Below are positions 2,605-61,705 of a DNA stretch of 64,000 nucleotides, piece by piece. The first letter of the stretch is position 1, and each line of letters opens with the position of its first letter. A program made the translations under genes and the position numbers. The notes under the pieces were generated by a model. That model saw nothing but the letters and a program-made list of their open reading frames with translations. It was not told the DNA's origin and did not search any database. Source of the stretch: a virus; the IMG/VR virus record IMGVR_UViG_3300045747_000054, positions 1 to 64,000 of that record; one strand, written 5' to 3'.

Positions 2605-3318
2605 TCACGCAGCCTTCTGATTGCCGTAACGATACCCGAAACGCGCAGCCTGATCGGCATGTGCCTTGACATTATGGCGCAGCGAGGCAACCGCGTGCAA
2701 TGCACAACGCTTCGCCTCAATCTGTACCGCATCCATGTCAATCGCGGGAATACCAATCTTTTCGCAATTGAGATCATATGCCCATACGATATCAAGGTAG
2801 TTATTGTATGTCTTACCATTCTTGGCAACCACCGGACCCATACGGTCACTGGTAGCAATGGCAAACTTATGGCAATGGATGCTCTTCCACGGGCTGATGG
2901 GGTAGTTCGCGTCGATCACTACTACTACCTTACCAATAGTACCCTTGCCACTGCGACCCTTATAGACATGGGCAGTGTCACCCTTACGGATAACCTTTAG
3001 GTCGGCTTCGGTGTCCGCAGTGATCTTGGACAGTGCATAGTCATACTGTGCATCGTAATAGCGGGTATAGGCATCTTCCGAAACATCGACCGTGATCGTG
3101 TCAGAATTCTCGATTTCCTGCGAACTCAGGATGCCATTGTCATCCACGAAATGCGCAAACGGGAACGAACCCCATTCATCACTCATGATGCGACGGTATT
3201 CCTCATTGCAATACAGAACACTGCCTTCGGCAATGGTCTTTGTGACAGGCACGGCATTCTGATTCTGCTCATAAGAGAGCTTGTAATCATAGGGCTTGCG
3301 GGTGAACGTGATCGACAT
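2605..3318 (-). CDS. hypothetical phage protein (237 aa)
   Basis: First gene of the transcription unit driven by the promoter at 3345-3372. Soluble protein with an acidic N-terminal half. A central basic, glycine-rich segment (HVYKGRSGKGTIGKVVVV) is KOW/SH3-like and could contact nucleic acid. The C-terminus is Ala/His-rich (HAVASLRHNVKAHADQAARFG). No catalytic motif recognised; the composition and strong promoter suggest an early-expressed accessory protein. Confidence 0.75.
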   Translation of the reverse strand: MSITFTRKPYDYKLSYEQNQNAVPVTKTIAEGSVLYCNEEYRRIMSDEWGSFPFAHFVDDNGILSSQEIENSDTITVDVSEDAYTRYYDAQYDYALSKITADTEADLKVIRKGDTAHVYKGRSGKGTIGKVVVVIDANYPISPWKSIHCHKFAIATSDRMGPVVAKNGKTYNNYLDIVWAYDLNCEKIGIPAIDMDAVQIEAKRCALHAVASLRHNVKAHADQAARFGYRYGNQKAA

Positions 3319-3344
3319 AAAAGATTTCCTTAACCTTATGATTC

Positions 3345-3372
3345 ATTATAGCATTTGGATCGTGAAAGTCAA
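3345..3372 (-). promoter_or_regulatory. sigma70-type promoter
   Basis: Minus strand TTGACT (3372-3367), 16-base spacer ending TGC (extended -10), TATAAT (3350-3345), followed by GAATCATAAGGTTAAGGA that leads into the start of the 237-residue gene. One of a series of near-identical promoters in this region. Confidence 0.85.
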
Positions 3373-3493
3373 GTATCAAAAACATTAATAATATCAGATA
3401 CTTACAGTGAATAGATACTTTTGCTGAAACTTCAATAATATCAATGACTTACGAGAATACGTGAATAGATACTCTATTTGACATATCAATTTG

Positions 3494-13038: not shown

Positions 13039-13809
13039 TTATGCGAATAGCTTTTTCTTTAGCATTGCAAGAAATGGTTTGTCATCTATTAATGAAGCAC
13101 ACTTGAAGTTTGTGTTAATAGAGTGACATGTTTCACATGCATCTGATGTTACAGGGTGTCCTGCCGCATAATTAATCTTACCTGTCGCATGTGTACCATC
13201 ATGGCACGATACGCATCCTGTGGTGATTCCTACGTGAATCGCAGCGATTGGAATGAACCAGTCAGTATTGGTGTGTGTCATTCCTGTGTCCATCGAAGCA
13301 TGGCACTGCACACAATCCTGTGTGGTATTGATGTGATTCGTGTCCTTGCCCATCGCACCATATGCAGTATAGGTTGTTCCTGTATGGCACGTATCGCATC
13401 GTTGTCCTGATACACTCGCGTGATTCATTGTCCACGTTGCGGTAAATGATGTAGTATTGTGGCAGGTATCGCACGTTGTGGTTCCGATTGGAATGTGCGC
13501 GGATGACTTACCGATTGTCGCTGCCGAAATTTGTCCGCTAGGATTACCATTGTGGCATGTTGCACATACCTTTGGTGTACCGACATAGATGCCACCAGCA
13601 TGGCACGATGCACATGTTCCACACTTACCAGTGGACAAGTGTGAACCTGTCAATGGATAGTTAGGGTGTAGTGTTTCGTACTGTGTACATTCTGCGGCTT
13701 GTGCAGTGTCAGGAATCAATGCGATAGCAACTGTGGCTGGAAGGTAAAATCCAACAGTCGTTGTTATGAGCATCAATGTAGATAACAAAAGGCTCTTGAA
13801 CTTGTTCAT
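13039..13809 (-). CDS. exported seven-heme c-type cytochrome (256 aa)
   Basis: Sec signal peptide (MNKFKSLLLS, hydrophobic core, cleavage near AQA-AE at 39). The mature part has seven canonical heme sites CXXCH at 66, 82, 113, 138, 166, 199 and 225, with extra His for bis-His ligation. Periplasmic electron carrier or the heme core of an outer-membrane conduit; maturation would rely on the host Ccm system. It shares its mature N-terminus (AAECTQYETLHPNYPLTG) and first heme region with the neighbouring five-heme protein, so the two are paralogues. It is the third gene after the barrel and is followed by a terminator. Multiheme cytochromes are very unusual in phages. Confidence 0.93.
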   Translation of the reverse strand: MNKFKSLLLSTLMLITTTVGFYLPATVAIALIPDTAQAAECTQYETLHPNYPLTGSHLSTGKCGTCASCHAGGIYVGTPKVCATCHNGNPSGQISAATIGKSSAHIPIGTTTCDTCHNTTSFTATWTMNHASVSGQRCDTCHTGTTYTAYGAMGKDTNHINTTQDCVQCHASMDTGMTHTNTDWFIPIAAIHVGITTGCVSCHDGTHATGKINYAAGHPVTSDACETCHSINTNFKCASLIDDKPFLAMLKKKLFA

Positions 13810-13864
13810 TTTAGTGCGTATTCCTTTACGGAGAAATTAATGAGACACTGCTATTTAGGAAACA

Positions 13865-14398
13865 TCAGTTGTTGAATGAAGGATCTGTCGGTCTGTGGCA
13901 TCCACCCGGATAGTTGCAATCCACAGTAGTGACGACAACTCCCCTTACTGTTCTAGGATGATCGTTCGATTTGCCACGCGCATTATAGGTAGTATACTGT
14001 CCATTATGGCACGCATCGCAGCGCACGGCAGGATATCCAGTATTGTGTATCATTGCCTGTGTAATACCCGTGAAACTATTGAATAACGTGGTATTATGGC
14101 ATCCTCCACAGTCCAATAATAGCGTAGGTAGATGCTTTGCTGATCTGCCTATTGTCATGCGTGACGGGCTTCCATTGTGACATGCGATACATGTTCTTGG
14201 TGTGCCCATCCAGATTGCATTTCCTGCCGGTATATGGCACAGACCACACGATGTACATTTGCCTGTACTCAAATGGGCACCTGTCAATGGATAGGTAGGA
14301 TGCAGTGTCTCATATCGTGTACATTCGGCAGCATTTAGTACAGAATACGGTACAATCAGTAACAAAAGTGTCACGAATAAAAGTGTTTTAAAAGTCAT
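13865..14398 (-). CDS. exported multiheme c-type cytochrome (177 aa)
   Basis: Start at ATG 14398, which overlaps the last bases of the barrel gene (ATGACTTTTAA), so it is translationally coupled to it; a longer in-frame extension would run into the barrel gene. Signal peptide MTFKTLLFVT with a leucine core, cleavage near NAA-EC. Heme sites CGLCH (51), CIACH (70), CGGCH (97), CDACH (127) and an atypical CX5CH (161, CNYPGGCH) give four to five hemes. Paralogue of the seven-heme protein. Coupling to the barrel suggests it sits in or against the pore. Confidence 0.92.
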   Translation of the reverse strand: MTFKTLLFVTLLLLIVPYSVLNAAECTRYETLHPTYPLTGAHLSTGKCTSCGLCHIPAGNAIWMGTPRTCIACHNGSPSRMTIGRSAKHLPTLLLDCGGCHNTTLFNSFTGITQAMIHNTGYPAVRCDACHNGQYTTYNARGKSNDHPRTVRGVVVTTVDCNYPGGCHRPTDPSFNN

Positions 14399-16292
14399 AT
14401 CGGTATCCAATATAGAGTGAGTCGGTTGGTTTGTAGTCAGGTGAAAGTGTCCATGCTCTAGAATACTGTGCCTCGATTGCATGGTGATCATTGATAGTAT
14501 AGATGCCACGTAGCATGGTGGATACAGTCTTGTTAACGATGTTGTCATGATCGTAATAATCATAGCGCACTATCAATGACGTTGTGTTTTTATTCTTTCT
14601 GAAATTATCCGCTGCGGTAATAGAGTACGAATTGATGGAGCCAATGCCGTGATTCAACACGAATTCTGTGGTATTGTTCTCTTTCAGTATATTATCGCCA
14701 GTCAAATGCAATCCCAATGCATATGAATTAGATTGTCCTATTTGAATGGGCACAGGATCATATGGTGTCTGTGATACTATATTGAAACCCGGCACTGTTG
14801 ACAGATTGGTGACTTGAAAATCTGTTGCGACTGTCCATTGCTTGTTCAGTTTCTTGTTTGCGCCCACTACAAATGATGTTGCAAATGGTGTGGATGATTC
14901 GATGTAGTTATAGATCTCTGCCTGATTCAATCCAGACTTGCTGATCATTTCGCTGACAGAATTATATACCTGTCTGTCTGGATTCAATCCACCCAACGAC
15001 AATGCACTGTCTGCATATAGCATTGGTGAACGTCTGCGCTCGTACAGTCCGAATATCTGGTAATTCTTGAAGAATTTATTAGCCTGTATCGTAATGGAAT
15101 TATAGCTATGATATACCGTGTCATATTCAATGCGAGTGAGTATGTTAGTATTATCGTCACGATAGTTAATGTCTGTGCCTATTGCGGATCTTTCCAATAA
15201 CTTGTCGGCAGTCTCACGATTGTAGTATAATCCAACTGTCCAGTCTCTATTGATACTCCAGTCTATTTCTGCACCTTCGAAACTGCGTGATGTACTGGAC
15301 GACATTCCGACATATGGCTTGCCACCGGCAATAACTACCTTTAATTCATCACTAATATCCCACAGTGCAGAGACTCCATCGAACCTGCTGATTGCACCTG
15401 CCTCTGGCATCTGTCTGCCGACGATCACATTATAGTGCTTGAATGTGTCTTCGAACTTTGCATATGCAGTATACAGGCTGGTTCTGTTGCCATTCAATCC
15501 AGACAGGTCTTTAATCTCGGTGAGTCTCAATCTGGATGATAGATTATACTGATTATGTGACAGACTAATGTTGTACTGGACACCTGTGATTGAACTGACC
15601 TGTGTGGTATTGGCACCAGAGTTATTCATGTACACATATTCTGAGACTGTGGCATTCACACTATGATCGTTACCAATGTGTGGTGTCTTGTTTCTGGATA
15701 TGTCCAATGTAGTTTTTGGCACCACGATCTCAATTGACATGAGACGTTGACGCACTCTCATTCTGTCATCATTCTCTTCTGGATATAGAGACAGATATAC
15801 CGCATATTCTCTCATTGCCTTTTCGTATAGCTTGGACTTCTCGTATGCATAGCCGAGATATTCATGTGCAAGCTTGGCAACATCAGGTGGATTGGTCAGT
15901 ATAATAGAACGTAGATCGTCTATTGCCTTGTCATACGGACCATTACGATTTAGTAATATACTGCGTGCCTCGTCATACAGTTCTTGTATTGGGCGAGTGT
16001 CGAATGTGATTTTAGGTGTATTAGTCTCAATATCAACAATAGAATCCTGTTTTTCAGGATCTTTTGGTATTATCACAGTCTCAACACTTGGGCGTTCATT
16101 GTGTTGGGGTCTTGGACGACGCGGGACTGTTGCTATCGTTTCTGTAATAGTTTTATCAGGAGTACGGGTAATGCTGCCTTTGACAGCATTAACTCTTTCT
16201 TCTGTGATTGGTGGAAATTCAGGATTCGAACAAGATACAAGTATTAATATAGAACCAGTTACAGTGCTGTAGAACAGATTTCTACTATTCAG
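14388..16292 (-). CDS. TPR plus outer-membrane beta-barrel protein, likely conduit porin
   Basis: About 100 N-terminal residues after the leader form TPR-like helices (YDKAIDDLRSIILTN, AHEYLGYAYEKSKLYEKAMREY). The rest, about 430 residues, alternates aromatic and polar strands and ends YIGYRYDF, the C-terminal aromatic signature read by BamA. The frame is open upstream of the GTG at 16076 and encodes a typical lipoprotein signal ending in LVSC with a Pro/Arg-rich linker. That would need a CTG start (16292, preceded by AAGGA) or another rare start. If translation begins at GTG 16076 the protein has 562 residues and no signal. Coupling to multiheme cytochromes matches porin-cytochrome (MtrB/PioB-like) logic, though the sequence is not a recognised MtrB. 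Confidence 0.82.
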   Translation of the reverse strand: MNSRNLFYSTVTGSILILVSCSNPEFPPITEERVNAVKGSITRTPDKTITETIATVPRRPRPQHNERPSVETVIIPKDPEKQDSIVDIETNTPKITFDTRPIQELYDEARSILLNRNGPYDKAIDDLRSIILTNPPDVAKLAHEYLGYAYEKSKLYEKAMREYAVYLSLYPEENDDRMRVRQRLMSIEIVVPKTTLDISRNKTPHIGNDHSVNATVSEYVYMNNSGANTTQVSSITGVQYNISLSHNQYNLSSRLRLTEIKDLSGLNGNRTSLYTAYAKFEDTFKHYNVIVGRQMPEAGAISRFDGVSALWDISDELKVVIAGGKPYVGMSSSTSRSFEGAEIDWSINRDWTVGLYYNRETADKLLERSAIGTDINYRDDNTNILTRIEYDTVYHSYNSITIQANKFFKNYQIFGLYERRRSPMLYADSALSLGGLNPDRQVYNSVSEMISKSGLNQAEIYNYIESSTPFATSFVVGANKKLNKQWTVATDFQVTNLSTVPGFNIVSQTPYDPVPIQIGQSNSYALGLHLTGDNILKENNTTEFVLNHGIGSINSYSITAADNFRKNKNTTSLIVRYDYYDHDNIVNKTVSTMLRGIYTINDHHAIEAQYSRAWTLSPDYKPTDSLYIGYRYDF

Positions 16293-43262: not shown

Positions 43263-43339
43263 TGGTACGACTGGTTGGGGTTGAACCAACGACCTAACGC
43301 TTATGAGGCGCTTGCTACTTACCACTGAGCTACAGCCGT
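43263..43339 (-). tRNA. tRNA-Met (CAT)
   Basis: Seven-pair acceptor (ACGGCTG with CAGTCGT), D arm, anticodon stem AGCGC/GCGTT with loop CTCATAA giving CAT, T arm with TTCAAC loop and encoded CCA (43265-43263). The D stem is short (three pairs). CAT could also be an Ile tRNA after modification or an initiator; G-C pairs of an initiator are not evident, so elongator Met is preferred. Confidence 0.92.
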
Positions 43340-43347
43340 ATATTTAC

Positions 43348-43376
43348 ATTATATCACACTAGATTCTTAAAGTCCA
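43348..43376 (-). promoter_or_regulatory. promoter of the tRNA-Met gene
   Basis: Minus strand TGGACT (43376-43371), 17-base spacer, TATAAT (43353-43348), eight bases before the tRNA. Confidence 0.7.
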
Positions 43377-43780
43377 CCATTATAGTTCAGGCTTGGATCA
43401 TAGTAAAGATAGGGATCTTCATACAATCCCATTTCCTCTGATTCTCTGACAAGTTCCTGTAGCATTTCCTCTTCTGTTTCAAATCCAGAATCAGAAGTGT
43501 AATTGTCCACTAGAACATCATATTCAAACGATAGCTGGCGAAGTTCCTTGGAAACTAGACGATTCTCTGCAATGTCAGTTTCGTGCATCCAAGGCTTGTG
43601 CTGAGAAAACTCAGAAGCCTGATAGTCAAGATCCTGTGCAATTCCTGCTGTCACAATGTCTCTCAGTGGAATAACAAGAATGGGTTCACTGTTATTTCCA
43701 GCGAAGATATTAACCTCTGTTCTACTTGTTTCTGGATTCCAAACCGTAATGAAGTCCAGATTCAATACTGCATGTGTCAT
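43367..43780 (-). CDS. acidic protein (137 aa)
   Basis: Beta-rich N-terminus (NLDFITVWNPETSRTEVNIF) and acidic, Tyr-rich C-terminus (DPYLYYDPSLNYN). Soluble; not recognised. Confidence 0.65.
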   Translation of the reverse strand: MTHAVLNLDFITVWNPETSRTEVNIFAGNNSEPILVIPLRDIVTAGIAQDLDYQASEFSQHKPWMHETDIAENRLVSKELRQLSFEYDVLVDNYTSDSGFETEEEMLQELVRESEEMGLYEDPYLYYDPSLNYNGGL

Positions 43781-43783
43781 ATT

Positions 43784-43864
43784 CTACTCACTTTTAATAA
43801 TCAAATCGACCATAGTAACGATAGCAGTGATGATCAAAGCTAGCATAACGTATCCACTAATCAT
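43784..43864 (-). CDS. membrane peptide (26 aa)
   Basis: A 26-residue single helix (VMLALIITAIVTMVDLII) with GGAGATTAAG before the ATG. Directly downstream of the Ro-like gene's terminator. Confidence 0.4.
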   Translation of the reverse strand: MISGYVMLALIITAIVTMVDLIIKSE

Positions 43865-43879
43865 CTTAATCTCCAAATG

Positions 43880-43914
43880 AAAAAGTGCTAGCCGATTAAA
43901 ACCGACTAGCACTT
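43880..43914 (-). terminator. rho-independent terminator of the Ro-like gene
   Basis: Minus strand AAGTGCTAG pairs with CTAGCACTT (nine bp) followed by TTTTC. It ends the unit that began at the promoter at 45818-45846. Confidence 0.8.
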
Positions 43915-43937
43915 ACTTTCAACAATACAACACGCTT

Positions 43938-45347
43938 TTAGACGTAGTTGTAACGATCAATCATCACCGCATCGCGGACGATGGTTTCTGGTGAAAGCGT
44001 ATCCATGTCCGAGGACAGAATAGCCTTCATGATCGAAGGTGAGAATCCTGATACAAGACCAACACCCTTCTGGTTGAATGAGACTGGCGCATTTCCAGCA
44101 CGATCATTGAGATTCCAGAAGATAATGGTTGGAAGCTTATATCCAGCCTTCTCATACTTACGAGAGATCATCTGCATTGCAGAGTCATCGTAAGACGTAC
44201 ACATGTCGAACTGCATGTCCGAGAGGATAAGCATGATCGATGGCATGTCTTCCGCAGAAGCCTTACCCTTGATTGCAGTCTCAAGTACACGCTCGAAAGC
44301 AGCGTGAAGGTTGGTGTTCATTCCCCAACGAGAAGAATTCATCTGAACCATCTTCTGTGAAAGTGTTCCCTTCAATACAAGAAGTTCTGGTGAACCCGAG
44401 AATGTTAGGAACATGTCCTTGAATGCACCCTTGTTCTTATCCGCGCAGTATAGACCGAGCGAAAGAGCAACATCGATGCACTGTAGGTTGGCGTTTCCAC
44501 CAACTGAACATCCCATCGAACCTGAAACGTCTACCATTGGTAGAACATTTGAGTCATCCATGTAGTCTGGAAGTGCCTTCCACATTGCGTCAGCAACGTC
44601 CTTATCACCAGCACGTAGAGACTTGATAACATCGTATGGGTATACTGCCGAAGCATTTACCTTTACAGTCTTATCGCCAGCCTTTAGGGCTTCACGATAT
44701 GCAACGAAACGTTCTGCGTCATTCTTGGAGAATGCCTTCATGTAACGTGACATCGCAAGTGATGGAACGTGTGAGTAGTTGATCTTCTCAAACTCACGCG
44801 CACAAAGCTTCTGCTCGACTGTGTTGGATAGACCAACAACAAGCTTACGATATGCCTTTGGTGATAGTTCAAGGTACGCACGAAGTTCAGCCGCAACCGA
44901 ACCCTTACGTGGCATCCACTTTGCCGCAAGACCGTTACCGATCTTGAGTGCTTCCGCGACGATGCCGAATGCCTTCGCCTTTACAACACCATTGGTGAAG
45001 ATTAGGAGATCGTCCCAACGTCCGATTTCTGCGACGTTGTTGAGTAGGCGTGTTCCAAGAAGAACATCGGTGTGATGCGCTTCTAGGTGTAGAAGAATAT
45101 CACGGAATAGCTGACGTTCACCAGCACCACCACGGACATCGCGTGCCCACTGAGCAACACGAAGTGCTAGGTCTGGATTATCCTGATATGCCTTTTCGAA
45201 CTGTGGAACGATCTGCATTCCACGGGAACCACCGATCTTGTAGAAAAGATCGACAACAGCAGACATTGTTGATGCCTGTGCCTTCATGCCATTCTCAGTA
45301 CGCTTGAGAACTGGAACGGTCTTAACTGCGTTTACAAATGAGTTCAT
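43938..45347 (-). CDS. Ro60/TROVE-like (DUF2828) protein with vWA domain (469 aa)
   Basis: Start at ATG 45347 (MNSFVNAV), eight bases after AAGGA. N-terminal 260 residues form a TROVE-like helical ring (ALRVAQWARDVRGGAGERQLF, AEIGRWDDLLIF, LAAKWMPRKGS), as in Ro60 and DUF2828. The C-terminal part is a von Willebrand A domain with MIDAS MVDVSGSMG at about 272-280 and ILSDMQFD. Ro proteins bind misfolded RNAs and Y RNAs and act in RNA quality control and stress. Here the gene lies directly behind an array of RNA elements, one of them tRNA-like, which fits a Ro-Y RNA pair. Only the vWA/TROVE assignment is motif-based; RNA binding is inferred. Confidence 0.9.
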   Translation of the reverse strand: MNSFVNAVKTVPVLKRTENGMKAQASTMSAVVDLFYKIGGSRGMQIVPQFEKAYQDNPDLALRVAQWARDVRGGAGERQLFRDILLHLEAHHTDVLLGTRLLNNVAEIGRWDDLLIFTNGVVKAKAFGIVAEALKIGNGLAAKWMPRKGSVAAELRAYLELSPKAYRKLVVGLSNTVEQKLCAREFEKINYSHVPSLAMSRYMKAFSKNDAERFVAYREALKAGDKTVKVNASAVYPYDVIKSLRAGDKDVADAMWKALPDYMDDSNVLPMVDVSGSMGCSVGGNANLQCIDVALSLGLYCADKNKGAFKDMFLTFSGSPELLVLKGTLSQKMVQMNSSRWGMNTNLHAAFERVLETAIKGKASAEDMPSIMLILSDMQFDMCTSYDDSAMQMISRKYEKAGYKLPTIIFWNLNDRAGNAPVSFNQKGVGLVSGFSPSIMKAILSSDMDTLSPETIVRDAVMIDRYNYV

Positions 45348-45371
45348 TTTCATATTCCTTCTATAACAAAC

Positions 45372-45488
45372 GGGATCAACTTTTATTTGCCTGTTGCTCT
45401 ACCAACTGAGCTATGTCATCTTACGATGACAGCGGGATTCGAACCCACGACCTACTGGTTTCCATTTTAGAGTTGCTGAACTGATCCC
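45372..45488 (-). ncRNA. Y-RNA-like element A with permuted tRNA module
   Basis: A 117-nt element closed by GGGATCAG with TTGATCCC. Inside, in transcript order: a conserved hairpin AGTT-CAGC-AACT, a complete T arm (GTGGG-TTCGAAT-CCCGC, 45448-45432), the 3' acceptor strand TGTCATC, a GUAA tetraloop (45424-45421), the 5' acceptor strand GATGACA, and a D arm (GCTC-AGTTGGTA-GAGC). That is a circularly permuted tRNA in which the acceptor stem is capped and the anticodon arm is replaced by the closing stem. It cannot be aminoacylated. Bacterial Y RNAs have exactly this tRNA-like module. It ends 24 bases before the Ro-like start codon. Confidence 0.85.
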
Positions 45489-45498
45489 AAATTTCAAC

Positions 45499-45549
45499 AG
45501 GATACCTTTTTACTTTACAATAGTAGTGTTGGATTGCTGCAAGTATCCT
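45499..45549 (-). ncRNA. Y-RNA-like element B (short)
   Basis: A 51-nt element closed by AGGATAC with GTATCCT. It carries the shared 5' motif (TTGCAGCAATCC) and 3' motif (AGTAAAAAGG) of the array but no tRNA-like module. Confidence 0.55.
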
Positions 45550-45558
45550 AAAATCAAC

Positions 45559-45662
45559 AGAATAGTCGGGTTTTACTAAACCTTATAACTCGTCCCTTAA
45601 GAGGACTAGGCTTGCTGGTTTGGGATTTCTCCCAAGCATTTTTGGTTTGCTGAACCTATTCT
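45559..45662 (-). ncRNA. Y-RNA-like element C
   Basis: A 104-nt element closed by AGAATAG with CTATTCT. Contains GGTT-CAGCA-AACC at the 5' side, hairpins GGGA-GAAA-TCCC and GTCC/GGAC, and AGTAAAACCC before the closing strand, all matching positions in A and B. Confidence 0.65.
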
Positions 45663-45678
45663 AAAAAAATTCAAATCT

Positions 45679-45807
45679 GATTGGCAGTTGTTACGGAAAC
45701 TAACCTTATCTCATGTATCTCAGAGAACACCCATTTACTGTTGGGGCAGTCGGATGTGGGTTTTACGCCAATACCTTTTCATTTTAGTTGGTTTGCAGTA
45801 TCCAATC
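45679..45807 (-). ncRNA. Y-RNA-like element D, promoter-proximal
   Basis: A 129-nt element closed by GATTGG with CCAATC. Begins ACTGCAAACCAACTAAAATG, the shared 5' motif, and contains the stem ACCCA/TGGGT around ACTG-CCCCAA-CAGT. It starts within about five bases of the predicted +1 of the promoter at 45818-45846. Confidence 0.65.
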
Positions 45808-45817
45808 AATATAACAT

Positions 45818-45846
45818 AGTATATAGTAAATTTTGTCCTCTGTCAA
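45818..45846 (-). promoter_or_regulatory. strong sigma70 promoter of the RNA array
   Basis: Minus strand TTGACA (45846-45841), 17-base spacer, TATACT (45823-45818). Transcription would begin at the stem of element D and run through elements C, B and A into the Ro-like gene. Confidence 0.85.
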
Positions 45847-46079
45847 GCCTTTTCCGCAGATATTTTTGTAAAAGTTGGGGTATCTGACCCCACCTGTTTC
45901 TTAATCCATTGTGCGCCACACACTGTACAAGTCACTTCTGATGTGTGCCAGTTACGATCTGGATTGGTGTTTCTACCAGTCTTATCGTAGATTGGAGGAT
46001 AATACTTCAATGTTGAAATTCCTCCATTTTCTCTGAAACGACAATCATCAACACAATCTGGATTAGGAGAAACGAACAT
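45843..46079 (-). CDS. Cys-rich zinc protein (78 aa)
   Basis: CVDDC near 9, CTVCGAQWIKK near 51: probable zinc ribbon; KYYPPIYDKTGRNTNPD is conserved among phage hypotheticals. Its C-terminus overlaps the -35 box of the RNA-array promoter. Function unknown. Confidence 0.65.
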   Translation of the reverse strand: MFVSPNPDCVDDCRFRENGGISTLKYYPPIYDKTGRNTNPDRNWHTSEVTCTVCGAQWIKKQVGSDTPTFTKISAEKA

Positions 46080-46327
46080 TAGATTCTACGTACCAATCTG
46101 GTGATCAGTTGATCGTCTTTAGTAAGACCAAATCGTTCACTCAAAAACTTTGGAAGCCAACTCTTTCGTTCGATAACGATCAAATAATTGACTTCAAGAT
46201 CTTCGACTTGTTCTTTCGTAAGAAACTTTTCTACTTCTAGAGACTTCAATGTATTGATATAAGCAAGATTCAATGATCTCTGTAGATCTTCATCTGTCAT
46301 CGACATCACACTAATCACGTTACTCAT
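46079..46327 (-). CDS. helical protein (82 aa)
   Basis: Start at ATG 46327 (MSNVISVMSMTDEDL). Helical, basic C-terminus (LITRLVRRI). Not recognised. Confidence 0.6.
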   Translation of the reverse strand: MSNVISVMSMTDEDLQRSLNLAYINTLKSLEVEKFLTKEQVEDLEVNYLIVIERKSWLPKFLSERFGLTKDDQLITRLVRRI

Positions 46328-46341
46328 ATTATATTCCTGTT

Positions 46342-46419
46342 TGGTGCCCAAGACGGGATTCGAACCCGTACTGTACAGATTTTAAATCTGCTGCCTCCTG
46401 CCGATTGCGCTACTTGGGC
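46342..46419 (-). tRNA. tRNA with anticodon TAA (Leu), short variable loop
   Basis: Acceptor GCCCAAG/CTTGGGC, D arm, anticodon stem GCAGA/TCTGT with loop TTTAAAA (anticodon TAA), T arm ACGGG-TTCGAAT-CCCGT and encoded CCA. TAA reads Leu codons, but the variable region is only ACAGT (5 nt) instead of the long arm of bacterial tRNA-Leu. Confidence 0.85.
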
Positions 46420-46429
46420 GTAATTTTAT

Positions 46430-46702
46430 TTAGCGGTAAACGTCGCCATTTTCGACACACTTTTTGTCTTCATAAGGTGCAGCGACTCTACGATAGAATT
46501 CCAACTTTACACATTCAAGAACACCAACGGCATCGTTGATTTCCGAATAACGACGATCATAAAGACGATCAATAAGTCTGGTGATTGAGTAGTTCAGATT
46601 ACCAGCACGACCTTCTTCCGAAGAAGCTGCTTCGATTGCTCGCGCAAGAGCATTGATTTCATCGTCAAGATAAAGTCGTTTTCCATCTACAATATACGGC
46701 AT
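46430..46702 (-). CDS. DUF6899-like phage protein (90 aa)
   Basis: Start at ATG 46702 ([16 protein letters not shown]), then [15 protein letters not shown]: the MPYI...D.I..LA...GDLNYxIT pattern of a family found near tRNAs in many phages. Helical, function unknown. Confidence 0.75.
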
Positions 46703-46703
46703 T

Positions 46704-47366
46704 TTATAACCCCAAAATCTCACTGATAAACTCATAACGATCTGCATACTTTGCGTGAGTCTGCGCAACTACACACGAACAATTGTCACAGTATGGATGA
46801 TTGCTCTTGAGAACGTAATGATATTCTCTTTTCTTGGTAGCATCACCACACATTGAACATACAAATGAATGATTTGTACTCCACTTCTTAGTGGTCAAAA
46901 TCTGCTTTGGAAGCTTCGCAAGATAATCATAGAGATCTTCAAAGTCAAAGAAAATCTTTGTGGCAAGTGCCTTCAACCATGATGGCATCTGTTCTTTCGG
47001 AAACGCAGATACAATGAACAGTGGCTTACCGTGATCATAGGCACACTGACATTCTGCGAATGATCCGGCACCGTTCTTGAACGGTTCATCGTAATACGCA
47101 ATTACCGCATCTGTATTTTCGATGATCAGACGTAGATCAGTATAGATGAATTGATAGCGAATGTTATACTTATCGTGAAGTTCATCTTCACCAGCAATGA
47201 CCTTACCATGAACGGCAGTATATGCCTTATCCAGTGCGGTAATGTCTAGTGGTAGGAAACCCATATGTTTGATTTCTTCGGAAACTTGGATACGCCACTG
47301 TGATCCTAGATCTACTGCGCGTTCCATTCCACCCGAGAGGTAGATGCTTCCATTGTGTTCAATCAT
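46704..47366 (-). CDS. nucleoside 2-deoxyribosyltransferase-like protein with zinc-finger tail (220 aa)
   Basis: [10 protein letters not shown] (8-17), then [10 protein letters not shown] and [38 protein letters not shown] (83-120), match the fold of nucleoside deoxyribosyltransferases and related phage enzymes (GSxxxxE in the catalytic loop, here GAGSFAE). After about residue 165 two CXXC pairs (CSMC, CDNC) make a zinc ribbon. It may act on nucleotides during host-DNA turnover or in base modification; the zinc tail is an unusual addition. Confidence 0.78.
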
Positions 47367-47390
47367 ATAATTTCCATATCACTTTAAATT

Positions 47391-47467
47391 TGGCGACGCT
47401 AGTAGGATTCGAACCCACAACCTGAAAGGTAGAAGCTTTCCGCTCTGTCCAGTTGAGCTATAGCGCC
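47391..47467 (-). tRNA. tRNA-Arg (TCT)
   Basis: Acceptor GGCGCTA/TAGCGTC, D arm GCTC/GAGC, anticodon stem GAAAG/CTTTC with loop CTTCTAC giving TCT, T arm GTGGG-TTCGAAT-CCTAC, encoded CCA. Reads AGA/AGG Arg codons, common in this AT-leaning genome. Confidence 0.95.
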
Positions 47468-47478
47468 ATTGTCAATAT

Positions 47479-47507
47479 ATTATATAGGATATTTCTTTAA
47501 AAGTCAA
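47479..47507 (-). promoter_or_regulatory. promoter of the tRNA-Arg gene
   Basis: Minus strand TTGACT (47507-47502), 17-base spacer, TATAAT (47484-47479), 12 bases before the tRNA. Confidence 0.85.
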
Positions 47508-47812
47508 GAATATTCATCAGAAACATCCACGAAAGTCTTAACTTTATTAATTCTTTTCCAAACAGACCAAACATATTCGGCATCTGGATCAGAACCAGAT
47601 TCACCAACAAGCTTGTATGTTCTACCAGATGCGGTAATGGCAGTCTTTGTCGGGTTATCAAAACTTAGAATCTTGGAAGAGACGCGACCCTCCATTTCTG
47701 TTCCATTATATCCAACAAGATGATGATCACCATTTTGAATTTGACGCACAGACCATGATAATATTTCAATATCTGGAGTTAACGAAATTGGAGTTGTTGA
47801 CCAAACTGACAT
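47504..47812 (-). CDS. hypothetical protein (102 aa)
   Basis: Beta-rich, with LSWSVRQIQNGDHHLVGYNG and KTAITASGRTYKLVGESG; not recognised. Ends at the -35 box of the tRNA-Arg promoter. Confidence 0.62.
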   Translation of the reverse strand: MSVWSTTPISLTPDIEILSWSVRQIQNGDHHLVGYNGTEMEGRVSSKILSFDNPTKTAITASGRTYKLVGESGSDPDAEYVWSVWKRINKVKTFVDVSDEYS

Positions 47813-47813
47813 T

Positions 47814-47951
47814 TTACTTCACTTCTTCTATAAGTTTAAGATACATTTCCAATTCTGAATCTGGAATAAATTCACCAGCTTCTCTCTTCTCTAAGAATTT
47901 CTGATAATCAGTTTTCTGACTATCCGTAGATTTCTCTGGTAATTCATCCAT
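47814..47951 (-). CDS. small acidic helical protein (45 aa)
   Basis: MDELPEKSTDSQKTDYQKFL and a helical tail. Tightly packed upstream of the previous gene. Not recognised. Confidence 0.5.
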   Translation of the reverse strand: MDELPEKSTDSQKTDYQKFLEKREAGEFIPDSELEMYLKLIEEVK

Positions 47952-47968
47952 AGTCTTCTCTCTAAATT

Positions 47969-48046
47969 TGGTGCCCTCGGTCAGATTTGAACTGACACAT
48001 GAACAGGGTTTGAACCTGCCGCCTCTGCCAATTGGGCTACGAGGGC
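47969..48046 (-). tRNA. tRNA with anticodon CAA (Leu), short variable loop
   Basis: Acceptor GCCCTCG/CGAGGGC, D arm GCC/GGC, anticodon stem GCAGG/CCTGT with loop TTCAAAC (anticodon CAA), T arm GTCAG-TTCAAAT-CTGAC, encoded CCA. The variable region is only TCATGT, again too short for a class II Leu tRNA. Confidence 0.85.
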
Positions 48047-57778: not shown

Positions 57779-58226
57779 GATTTTCCATATCTTCTAATAT
57801 AAGTTTCAATTCCCAAATTTCAGCATTGTTTTTAAGTGTATTTGCTCTATTAGAAATGATACGAACATTTCCTTTCACATATCCTTTACTGTTATCAATT
57901 CTATCAATACTAGGTTGAACCATCGGTATTTTTAGAACTGGACAAATATCTGGAATCACAATATCACTTTCGTCAATATCAAAATCTCTATCTCTTAAAA
58001 CAGCCCTACTCTTTGCGCGCTGGAGTATTTTCTTTACAATGTCTTTAGATTTCCATTGTTGTTTGGACAATGGTTTTCTACAATCTATACATGTAGTGTT
58101 TTTACCATGTGGACATTCACTGTGTGCATGAAAATTATCCCAAGTTTTATACACCTGACATTTACGACATACCCTGCCATTGTTGTCATATGTACCCCAC
58201 TTGAATTTATTCCCAATCTTGTTCAA
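57771..58226 (-). CDS. HNH homing endonuclease downstream of nrdJ (151 aa), TTG start
   Basis: CRKCQVYKTWDNFHAH and CIDCRKPLSK form a zinc site, and the HNH core is PSIDRIDNSKGYVKGNVRIISNRANTLK (about 103-130). TTG at 58226 overlaps the stop of the C-half of the reductase (TTGA), so it is translated with it. Typical of AP2-less HNH enzymes that home beside their target. One of three HNH genes around the reductase. Confidence 0.82.
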   Translation of the reverse strand: MNKIGNKFKWGTYDNNGRVCRKCQVYKTWDNFHAHSECPHGKNTTCIDCRKPLSKQQWKSKDIVKKILQRAKSRAVLRDRDFDIDESDIVIPDICPVLKIPMVQPSIDRIDNSKGYVKGNVRIISNRANTLKNNAEIWELKLILEDMENHE

Positions 58227-58879
58227 GTTATGTCACAAACGCCAGAAACACAAGCAAGACTTTGAGAACCAACAGTCATATCAGTTTCTTCCTTGAACTC
58301 CACCCAATCAATACTGACATTTTGAATTGCCAGAAGTTCATTATACTTAGCCTCATCAATTTCCTCATATGGTGCCTGACGATATGATCCAGTGTCTCTT
58401 GGAAGGAATGAAACTCCTGAAATTGCTGTCATGTTCTTATAGACCCATGCTCCAACATCCATCCATTCGTCGTCACCTACGAATACTGTAATAGATGGCT
58501 TATGTTCGCACCAATGTTCCTGATAGATCTTCCAAAGTTCTAGCTGTTCAATTGCAGTAACATCCTTGGTGAGAACCGCGCCTTCTGGTGCCTTCATTGG
58601 AAATGAGAATACCCAATTTGATTTTCCATAGAAGTCTTCTTCGGCAACGTATCCCTTACTGATCATGAAGTTTGCAAGAGGATCCTTCTTGTCTGCACGT
58701 ACTCTGCGAATATAGTACTGTGAATAACGAGGATGAATACCTGAAGCAGAGTCAACCAATTGTGAAACTGTATTATGAACCACCCAACCATTGTCTAACT
58801 GATATGAGTGTGTATCAGCAACTTCAATATCTGCTGTAAGAGTTGCGGTTCCCGTCTTTCTAATCTTTGCTACTTTCAT
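58223..58879 (-). CDS. nrdJ: C-half of class II ribonucleotide reductase with C-intein (218 aa)
   Basis: Residues 1-36 are the C-terminal half of a split intein: ADIEVADTHSYQLDNGWVVHN ends in the invariant His-Asn, cleaved before Thr37. Residues 37-218 are the C-terminal part of the reductase, continuing TVSQLVDSASGIHPRYSQYY and ending LACVSGVCDIT, the CX4C redox tail that recharges the active site. No start of a normal reductase is present, so it depends on trans-splicing with the N-half. ATG overlaps the stop of the intervening endonuclease (ATGA). Confidence 0.93.
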   Translation of the reverse strand: MKVAKIRKTGTATLTADIEVADTHSYQLDNGWVVHNTVSQLVDSASGIHPRYSQYYIRRVRADKKDPLANFMISKGYVAEEDFYGKSNWVFSFPMKAPEGAVLTKDVTAIEQLELWKIYQEHWCEHKPSITVFVGDDEWMDVGAWVYKNMTAISGVSFLPRDTGSYRQAPYEEIDEAKYNELLAIQNVSIDWVEFKEETDMTVGSQSLACVSGVCDIT

Positions 58880-59496
58880 TTTCTACCTCTATTAAATTGT
58901 GTTCTTTTTATGAAATCTTCAAAATTTTCATTAATCTGCTGTGTTGGTGTATACTTTTTATGGGTTCCTTCATTATCAGTATACCAACGAAATCCTTTGT
59001 TCTTTACTCCACCACGTTTACCAAATTCAGACTGTCTTTTTGGGTCTTGAAATACACCAGATGCTTTACCACCCTTAGACGCCCACTGTAATCTGAGTTC
59101 TTTGTTTGGTGTGTGGATACCGAGACCATTTTCTTTTTGCATCTTTCCACCAATTCTCCCACCCATAGCAGCCCAAATTTTTCTTTCTTCTTCAGAGCGA
59201 AATATACCAACTCCAGTATCATAAACTTTAGTTCCACCAATCTTCCCACCCTCAGAAGAAGAAACTTGATGAGCCTCACTGAAATTATATCCTATCATAT
59301 GATAAGCGCACAAATCCCTAAAGTCACCATATTTTTCATATCTTTCCATGTGGGCTTTTTTATGATGTTCTTTAGAGAGAGCCACAAGATTAGAAATATC
59401 ATCAGTGCCCCCAGCATATCTGGGTATTATGTGGTGTATCTCATAATCTTGTGGTATTGGTCCGTGGTGTTCTTCGTATAGTTTTTTATAATTCAT
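58876..59496 (-). CDS. HNH endonuclease inside the split intein locus (206 aa)
   Basis: EIHHIIPRYAGGTDDISNLVALSKEHHKKAHMER is the His-His-Asn-His catalytic core near residue 19-52. The rest contains three GG-X-(I/A)-(G/S)-G repeats (EGGKIGGTK, MGGRIGGKM, KGGKASGVF), DNA-binding modules common in phage HNH homing enzymes. The gene stands free between the two intein halves rather than inside an intein, so it is a nested mobile gene. It overlaps the C-half start by four bases. Confidence 0.88.
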   Translation of the reverse strand: MNYKKLYEEHHGPIPQDYEIHHIIPRYAGGTDDISNLVALSKEHHKKAHMERYEKYGDFRDLCAYHMIGYNFSEAHQVSSSEGGKIGGTKVYDTGVGIFRSEEERKIWAAMGGRIGGKMQKENGLGIHTPNKELRLQWASKGGKASGVFQDPKRQSEFGKRGGVKNKGFRWYTDNEGTHKKYTPTQQINENFEDFIKRTQFNRGRK

Positions 59497-59544
59497 AGTA
59501 TTAAACCCTCTTTACTTCCTGACGGTATAACACTATTTAGTATT

Positions 59545-61233
59545 TTAAAACTTTACGACATCATCACCTTCTGAAAGTTCGTCAACGCGAACCCACCCTT
59601 TACCTGTAACTTTAACTTTATGTTCTGCTGTAAACTTGTAAGTATTTCCGTTCTCGTCTGAAACTTCATAGGTTTCGGCAAATCCATTAACGAAAAGTTT
59701 AGTGATTGGTTTTAATTCATCATTTTCATCATAAACTAGCAAATCTTTAGTTGGCTCTAGCCAATCGCCCTGATTACAATTTTGAATATCATAGCCCATA
59801 TGTTCAAAAATTTCTTCGATGGTCATAATACCGTTCGAAGTTTTAATCTTCGTATCGATATCTGCGCACCCTGATGGCTTCACGCATGTGATTGCGGCTG
59901 CTGCTTCTACTCCGAGTGCCTTAGAAAGATCAACGTTGGTTTTTACAGCAAGTTCACGCATTTCTGTGAGCCAACGTGCTAGTTCTTCATTCTGTCCACT
60001 TGATGAAAAGTTTACTGAACCATTGAGTGTCTTATGATCCATGATACCAGTCAGAGAAACGCCTAGCAATCTTTCTTCTTCGGTGTTGTTCTTCCACTTC
60101 TTGTTGATGTAACGGAAGTCGGAGAGTGTAGATTGTAGTGTTCCTAGAATGGTTGCAAGCTTTACCTTGCGCTTCAATGTTTCCAGTGTATCCTCTGCAC
60201 GCACTACAACTTCCGACAGATTACAGAACTGGTATGGACGCAGGATGATTTCTGAACATGGGTTCGTACCATAGTCCAATTTTGGATCTCTGCGACCATA
60301 TTTTGCTGCTGCTGCCTGTGAGGCAACACGCGAGAACAGACCACGTTCTCCAGAACGAGACATGTATAGTGCAACCCATTCCTTCATGAATGTGTCCATG
60401 TCTGGACGTTGTTCATAGACTGCGCTATTATTAGCGAGTGATCGCTGACCGTTGTGGGTCCACCATTCTCCTGACTTGGAGTTACGGATGTAATCATCAT
60501 TAAGGTCAGATAGAGAAATAAGAGCAGAGCGGCGAACTCCACCGCAGACAACAATATCTGCGATTTTACATACGATGTCATGGCATTCCAATGTGGTCAG
60601 TTTGCGACCACGGGCTTTGTTGAAAATGTTGAGTGTGAACTTTAGAAGATCTACGAGTGGTTCTGGTCCAGATGCGCGACCACCAAAAGTCTTAAGACGT
60701 TCTCCTGCTGGACGGAGTTTGGAGATATCCCATTGAGGAATCTTACCTGAATATAGGAGAGAAACAAATTCTCTGTATCCTGTTGCCCATCCGATCTTAC
60801 TGTCTTTGAACATGATGGTGGTGTCTGTTGGATGTAGTTCATCTGGAACCTCTGGAAGCTTGTTGGTATAGCGAGATTCGACTGAGAAACCCACTCCAGT
60901 TCCGCAGCATAAAATATACATGATTTCATCGAATGCTTTCTGACTATCAATAACAACATATGAACAGTTATATCCAGCAACATTATCTTTTTCTAGTGCT
61001 GGTCCAGCAGTCATTAATGCTCTCATAGAAGGCATTACTTCTAGGTTTAAAACAGCATCCTGTAATTCCTTCCAAGGAATTTTCTTATTGTTATCTGTTC
61101 TCTTTTTAAAGAACTCAAAATATCTATTGACTGTTTCTGACCAAGTTTCTCGTCTTCCACTTTCATCTAAATATCTAGCATATCTGCTGATTGCTATATA
61201 TTGCTGGTATACTGTTGGTAGTTCATTCTTCAT
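59545..61233 (-). CDS. nrdJ: N-half of class II ribonucleotide reductase with N-intein (562 aa)
   Basis: Start at ATG 61233, just after the previous stop and a GGAAAGAGAATAAC site. Residues 1-455 are a monomeric adenosylcobalamin-dependent reductase: GYNCSYVV (Cys90), FGGRASGPEPL, GTNPCSEIILRPYQFCNLSEV (Cys326 active-site, Glu328, Cys337) and finally CVKPSG (450-455). Residue 456 is the Cys1 of an N-intein of 107 residues (ADIDTKIKTSNGIM...YKFTAEHKVKVTG...GDDVVKF; TAEH is block B). It ends in a stop. The conserved reductase sequence CVKPSG-TVSQL is restored by joining Gly455 to Thr of the C-half, giving 637 residues. Confidence 0.94.
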   Translation of the reverse strand: MKNELPTVYQQYIAISRYARYLDESGRRETWSETVNRYFEFFKKRTDNNKKIPWKELQDAVLNLEVMPSMRALMTAGPALEKDNVAGYNCSYVVIDSQKAFDEIMYILCCGTGVGFSVESRYTNKLPEVPDELHPTDTTIMFKDSKIGWATGYREFVSLLYSGKIPQWDISKLRPAGERLKTFGGRASGPEPLVDLLKFTLNIFNKARGRKLTTLECHDIVCKIADIVVCGGVRRSALISLSDLNDDYIRNSKSGEWWTHNGQRSLANNSAVYEQRPDMDTFMKEWVALYMSRSGERGLFSRVASQAAAAKYGRRDPKLDYGTNPCSEIILRPYQFCNLSEVVVRAEDTLETLKRKVKLATILGTLQSTLSDFRYINKKWKNNTEEERLLGVSLTGIMDHKTLNGSVNFSSSGQNEELARWLTEMRELAVKTNVDLSKALGVEAAAAITCVKPSGCADIDTKIKTSNGIMTIEEIFEHMGYDIQNCNQGDWLEPTKDLLVYDENDELKPITKLFVNGFAETYEVSDENGNTYKFTAEHKVKVTGKGWVRVDELSEGDDVVKF

Positions 61234-61234
61234 G

Positions 61235-61705
61235 TTATTCTCTTTCCTTCTTTTGTTTATTTTTAAATCTGCCGTCATGTCCTCTTTCGGTTCCAGTTGG
61301 AAGCCGACCCAAAATCCAATTTTCTGGTTGTGATCCAACCAAATATCTGTATTCTATTATACCATTGTGGTAATATTTCTTCCCTTTCACACTAGATCGT
61401 TGACTCTTATATTTTCTAGTTTCTTCTGAGTCTTTGAGTCCTGTTCTAGAAATGGAGATTTTCATTCTCGTTTCTATACTGTTTACTTTACCTTTATTGG
61501 CAATAGAAGATGCCAATCTTCTAGCTTGATCTATTTCAATTTGTCCGCTCAAAGTTTTCCAAGCAATTTCATCTTCCCATCTACCATAAGTTTCAAATAG
61601 TATACGATGTGCTTCTGCATGTTCGGCAACACTTAATTCTACAATATTAGAAGAATCGTTAGTGCCACCAGCATGTTTTGGAACAATGTGATGCTTATGT
61701 TTCAT
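61235..61705 (-). CDS. HNH endonuclease upstream of nrdJ (156 aa)
   Basis: Start at ATG 61705 overlapping the previous stop (ATGA). KHHIVPKHAGGTNDSSNIVELSVAEHAEAHRIL carries the HNH core (His-His...Asn...His). The C-terminus (IIEYRYLVGSQPENWILGR) is a NUMOD-like module. It lies one base before the reductase start, so it is a free-standing mobile gene next to its likely target. Confidence 0.85.
   Translation of the reverse strand: MKHKHHIVPKHAGGTNDSSNIVELSVAEHAEAHRILFETYGRWEDEIAWKTLSGQIEIDQARRLASSIANKGKVNSIETRMKISISRTGLKDSEETRKYKSQRSSVKGKKYYHNGIIEYRYLVGSQPENWILGRLPTGTERGHDGRFKNKQKKERE

Follow-up and report, generated by a model that had tools for sequence, protein, structure and literature searches.

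A phage locus with four tandem handle RNAs, one of them a permuted tRNA, beside a gene for a predicted Ro60-fold protein

The minus strand of the virus record IMGVR_UViG_3300045747_000054 carries, between positions 43938 and 45808, a locus that probably specifies a Ro ribonucleoprotein of the DUF2828 lineage in this phage, with one promoter, four RNAs that share a terminal handle and differ in their interiors, which would serve as exchangeable cargo modules, and a Ro-like protein expected to bind them. All coordinates refer to the window, the 64,000-nt stretch corresponding to positions 1–64,000 of this IMG/VR record. We define the handle by a strict rule: a 7-bp Watson-Crick terminal stem, three nucleotides, the core C[A/C/T]GCA(A), a variable interior, the complementary stem strand, and then G.

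Read along the minus strand from 45808 to 43938, the order is elements D, C, B and A and then the Ro-like gene. A sigma-70-like promoter (TTGACA-17-TATACT, 45818–45846), the highest-ranking of seven promoter-like sites in the region, lies on the upstream side of the array, with a gap of about 10 nt to element D (45678–45808, 131 nt; stem TGATTGG/CCAATCA, spacer ATA, core CTGCAA, then G). Element C (45559–45662, 104 nt; stem AGAATAG/CTATTCT, spacer GTT, core CAGCAA, then GTT) bears a hairpin in its cargo, and the cargo of element B (45499–45549, 51 nt; stem AGGATAC/GTATCCT, spacer TTG, core CAGCAA, then GTT) is short. Element A (45372–45488, 117 nt; stem GGGATCA/TGATCCC, spacer GTT, core CAGCAA) was found by both the strict handle scan, which also yielded the other three, and folding. 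The gene (43938–45353) encodes a protein of 471 amino acids, and just past its stop codon is an intrinsic-terminator-like hairpin with a 14-pair stem and a T run (43883–43914). The promoter (11 of 12 positions) and the terminator were recognized by consensus match alone; because the one lies about 10 nt before element D and the other follows the gene, they suggest a single putative D-C-B-A-Ro transcript. The original prediction that RNA and protein are parts of one transcription unit is supported in this putative form, although it had taken element A as the sole RNA partner, and A is instead the last of four tandem handle elements (45372–45808).

The strict rule is satisfied four times in the 64-kb window, every time within this array. 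Shuffled windows contain a mean of 2.25 strict handles per 64 kb, so that a count of four alone proves nothing; however, four handles on one strand within 450 nt were never seen in 300 shuffles, where the maximum was two. Five other handle-like sites elsewhere in the 178.7-kb record are not claimed, their number fitting the chance rate. The record has five tRNA genes, four of which surround the Ro locus (43263–48046, minus strand). Elsewhere on the minus strand of the window, two multi-heme cytochrome-c-like proteins (Cytochrome_C7; 13039–14563 and 14388–16076) adjoin a 562-residue protein with a TPR-like start and a beta-strand-rich end, an arrangement reminiscent of a porin-cytochrome conduit, here on a virus record, and a B12-type ribonucleotide reductase (58223–61338) is split by an intein and HNH-like reading frames.

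Element A is, as had been predicted, a permuted tRNA, with its anticodon end open and its acceptor end closed; the predicted interval, 45372–45488 on the minus strand, is exact, and all 16 tRNA-type pairs form. Its terminal stem of 7 bp (GGGAUCA/UGAUCCC) encloses, in order, a T arm (GUGGG-UUCGAAU-CCCGC), the 3′ acceptor strand, a GUAA loop, the 5′ acceptor strand (together a 7-bp acceptor, UGUCAUC-GUAA-GAUGACA) and a D arm (GCUC-AGUUGGUA-GAGC). The folding energy is −35.9 kcal/mol (z = −4.0). When all 16 pairs and a consensus T loop are demanded, element A is the window's only perfect permutation of T arm, acceptor and D arm, and 300 dinucleotide-shuffled windows contain none. The perfect criterion matters because looser pairing rules commonly yield permuted tRNAs by chance, about five per shuffled window. 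The Rfam covariance model of the bacterial Y RNA YrlA (RF02553) matches element A at 39.1 bits (E = 3.6e-7 in that stretch), which supports the predicted likeness in layout to the tRNA-like module of bacterial Y RNAs but stays under the family cut-off of 69; agreement with the model is confined to the tRNA part and does not extend to the ends. The many weak hits that YrlA gives in other phages carry no weight here, since ordinary tRNA pairs match as well and 11 of 14 control genomes score.

The handle is genuine and tied to the DUF2828-type Ro gene. Upstream of DUF2828 genes at 98 loci (80 IMG/VR contigs, 17 phage records and the window) it occurs at 1.07 per kb on the gene strand, compared with 0.042 per kb antisense and 0.031 per kb in shuffled sequence. 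Some of the viral loci counted had served in drawing up the rule, but bacterial genome loci fetched only afterwards gave 87 handles in sense, 4 antisense and none when shuffled. Among 96 viral loci, 85 have a handle within 3 kb of the gene on the gene strand and 7 have one antisense; there is no strict handle within 3 kb at 11 of these 96 and at about a third of the bacterial loci. The conserved handle shows compensatory change in its stem, with 97 distinct stem sequences among 174 viral elements. Because the rule itself demands pairing, pairing was assessed separately in 74 non-redundant loci by letting only four of the seven pairs determine the partner strand: the remaining three pairs are all complementary in 89/113, 87/103 and 91/103 cases, as against 0/20, 0/17 and 0/9 antisense and 0–1 in each of the shuffles. 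One docking end recurs at hundreds of phage and bacterial loci.

What the handle encloses is far less uniform. A strict permuted tRNA is present in 28 of 280 non-redundant handle elements and in none of 5600 shuffled cargoes, and the acceptor helices of the permuted elements are built from many different pair types; the remaining elements are short (about 50–65 nt) or have other folds. At the viral loci, 15 perfect permuted tRNAs lie within handle elements and two elsewhere, and both of the outlying ones show degenerate, near-miss handle cores. The permuted fold therefore recurs by homologous genes in other phages and in bacteria, contrary to the concern, raised with the original prediction, that related phages might not conserve it. 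The acceptor loop begins N-CCA, as at the 3′ end of a real tRNA, in 8 of the 28 permuted elements (at loci L024, L037, L042, L054, L056, L067 and L089), which may reflect descent from tandem tRNA genes or else processing. These counts come from strict versions of the search, a loose regular expression for permuted tRNAs having been dropped after it caught tandem ordinary tRNAs and handle stems. At L042 there is also a handle element (3281–3375) whose cargo ARAGORN calls a linear, not a permuted, tRNA-Lys. Other structured RNAs lie in the same neighborhoods: Listeria phage P100 has a sub-threshold match to ROOL RNA (86 bits, cut-off 99.1; L092, 968–1519) 5′ of its Ro gene and handle array, and tmRNA genes lie near the Ro genes of three phage contigs (L054, 2291–2617; L004, 1052–1427; L197, 4459–4880).

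The protein of 471 residues matches DUF2828 (1.8e-28), the vWA domain DUF7788 (4e-46) and PHROG 850, annotated 'RNA-binding protein' (1e-146), and the D-x-S-x-S motif of its vWA domain is intact. The original prediction placed it in the Ro60 family as a TROVE/DUF2828 plus vWA protein, and the DUF2828 and vWA assignments hold; membership of TROVE at the sequence level does not, as PF05731 gives no Pfam match at E ≤ 1 and profile comparison reaches the TROVE chain 9l5y only marginally (E = 0.31). As a sequence-only search for Ro60 structures gave no convincing link to TROVE, the fold was examined by structure prediction. The AF2 model, built from a 47-sequence alignment with a mean pLDDT of 81, has seven matches in the PDB at E ≤ 1e-3, and all seven are Ro60/TROVE structures, with no other structure among them; they include the Ro60 of Thermus phage phiLo, Deinococcus Rsr and Ro autoantigen structures. 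TM-scores normalized by the query are 0.38–0.60, and the best matches superpose at an rmsd of 7–8 Å. The predicted model has the helical-repeat ring plus vWA fold of Ro60/TROVE proteins, and the second ground for refutation named with the original prediction, a protein that lacks a TROVE domain and does not bind the RNA, accordingly did not refute it; the protein is best called, on this modeled fold, a Ro60-fold protein of the DUF2828 lineage and a distant relative of the human Ro60 autoantigen.

In the mechanism that we propose, the single promoter would drive the small RNAs D, C, B and A and then the Ro-like ring protein. We infer that this protein recognizes the common handle, reading the 7-bp stem by its shape together with the adjoining CAGCAA strand. 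The interior, which varies from RNA to RNA, would then project as a swappable module: A would present a tRNA mimic, and the others hairpins or short loops. The mimic of A would engage tRNA-handling enzymes or a nuclease. During infection the complex would take part in RNA surveillance or serve as a decoy, in the manner of bacterial Ro60, which binds Y RNA and tethers PNPase through it (PMC8394870, PMC7790460); by this analogy, the phage ribonucleoprotein may direct RNA decay or shield tRNAs in infected cells. Neither RtcB nor RNA_ligase has a match in this virus record, which may be incomplete, and a link to RNA repair is therefore unsupported here.

Several features of the locus could be read differently. 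In the window, as at many other loci, a single promoter precedes the array and the gene follows immediately, as would be expected if the elements served within the leader of the Ro mRNA for its processing or regulation, the protein autoregulating by attachment to its own 5′ UTR and no free small RNAs being made. We regard this as improbable, because handle RNAs are found 3′ of the gene in mycobacteriophage Winky, staphylococcal phage SEP9 and Felix-like phages, and at some other loci within tRNA clusters several kb from the gene, and because the cargoes differ and include perfect tRNA mimics. The tRNA genes around the locus and the N-CCA acceptor loops of permuted elements elsewhere would suit a permuted tRNA gene, whose acceptor loop is cut to give a working tRNA or tRNA halves and for which the Ro gene is an incidental neighbor; but element A has a GUAA tetraloop without CCA and lacks an anticodon loop, its anticodon end opening into the handle, and the majority of handle RNAs have no tRNA part, so that we consider this very improbable indeed.

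An explanation that overlaps with our own, differing in that the tRNA mimic is the whole point, is that element A is a decoy or anti-nuclease RNA that soaks up host anticodon nucleases or tRNA-modifying enzymes, with the Ro protein just stabilizing it. The same role, as nuclease competitor or decoy, has been proposed for the tRNA mimic of YrlA, whose tRNA-like domain is not cut by an anticodon nuclease (PMC7790460), and phage tRNA clusters often adjoin DUF2828-type Ro loci. Three of the four RNAs here, and most of those elsewhere, have no tRNA module, however, and we think this explanation unlikely, if still deserving of attention. 

The handle has an unexpected counterpart among eukaryotic RNAs. 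The Rfam model of dictyostelid Class I RNA (RF01414) matches element B at 25.0 bits (E = 0.00175 for the whole virus record) and handle RNAs of other phages at up to 37.7 bits, all below the cut-off of 41.5; both element B and the relative at 37.7 bits align through the handle stem and motif. As RF01414 also hits 7 of 14 control genomes at E ≤ 1 and no match reaches the cut-off, weak hits carry no meaning. Matches above 27 bits in the arrays examined are the rule-defined elements, with one exception in Lak-B6, and in 36 virus records the model has 25 matches at E ≤ 0.01; 24 of these are on the Ro gene strand, most of them within a few kb of the Ro gene and some at least 10 kb distant. Class I RNAs, of about 60 nt, have a short stem with compensatory changes, a variable interior, an 11-nt motif beside the 5′ strand of the stem with near-invariant U, C, C, A and A, and a CUGU end (PMC7919456). 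Element B (AGGAUAC-UUGCAGCAA ... GUAUCCUGUU, 51 nt) fits this description in its terminal stem, the motif nnUnnCnnCAA beside the 5′ strand, the CUGU 3′ end and a length near 60 nt, and elements A and C deviate from the motif at position 3. The phage and Class I RNAs thus share a compensatory terminal stem, an unpaired motif ending CAGCAA, a CUGU-type 3′ end and a variable interior, but Class I RNAs are eukaryotic and described as confined to dictyostelids, outside which the published search found none, and their reported direct partner is the RRM protein Rnp1A rather than a Ro protein; Ro60, TROVE and Y RNA are not mentioned in that account (PMC7919456). We tentatively suggest, at somewhat less than even odds, that the CAGCAA handle marks a second, DUF2828-type Ro ribonucleoprotein system across phages, bacteria and eukaryotes, and that Class I RNAs serve in it as the Y RNAs of eukaryotes, with a Ro-like protein binding them. 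If this is true, an orphan developmental RNA class is a relative of phage Y RNAs. The match gives a direct and testable lead on the partners and role of that class.

Ro-like proteins and Y RNAs are known in outline from phages (PMC7824862, PMC7765460, and also mycobacteriophage annotations), and phage Y RNAs were reported by Sim and Wolin 2018, as cited in PMC7765460. The phage Ro/Y RNA pairing is thus known already, and the locus at 43938–45808 is a variant with its own handle. Chen et al. 2014 reportedly described phage Y RNAs too. We found no description of the CAGCAA handle, of arrays with dissimilar cargoes or of a connection with Class I RNA in the papers open to searching. Most work on Ro60 and Y RNAs concerns animals and a handful of bacteria, and their phage counterparts are at best annotated 'RNA-binding protein'; with a simple handle rule, numerous small RNAs lacking annotation come to light close to PHROG 850 genes, some of them in phages that grow on laboratory hosts. 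The phage 'Ro-like RNA binding proteins' (e.g. mycobacteriophage Winky gp55) belong to this same PHROG 850 family, with 681 phage records; Winky has three handle RNAs directly 3′ of the gene, one with a perfect permuted tRNA, and in the Winky, P100 and SEP9 records the handle RNAs are unannotated at those positions.

A TROVE search of 274 bacterial genomes gave just three matches, and so eight control loci with TROVE-type genes were taken from phages and plasmids. The CAGCAA handle is absent from these eight loci apart from one sense and two antisense hits over 52 kb that look like chance, and at several of them YrlA is matched, with up to 92.2 bits (Rhizobium plasmid locus L202), on a handle unlike the CAGCAA type. 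There are therefore two Ro lineages and two handles, with one permuted-tRNA module in common, and the terminal stem of element A is not the Ro-binding stem of YrlA but a family-specific handle of the CAGCAA type. That one and the same module is found on two handles, each going with its own Ro lineage, suggests modular construction, with the handle suited to the protein and the function decided by the cargo. Thermus phage phiLo Ro60 (PDB 9l5y, 9kop) is likewise a phage Ro60-fold protein and gives the best structural matches to our model, but it is named a TROVE domain protein and shows no significant sequence match. As in the bacterial Ro60 (Rsr)/YrlA systems, a Ro60-fold protein is encoded next to small RNAs, and as in YrlA (RF02553) a permuted-tRNA module with a closed acceptor is joined to a terminal stem; in contrast, the phage protein is of the DUF2828/DUF7788 type and not PF05731, the terminal handle is a stem followed by three nucleotides and CAGCAA rather than that of YrlA, element A scores below the YrlA cut-off, and the phage locus has four RNAs with unlike cargoes.
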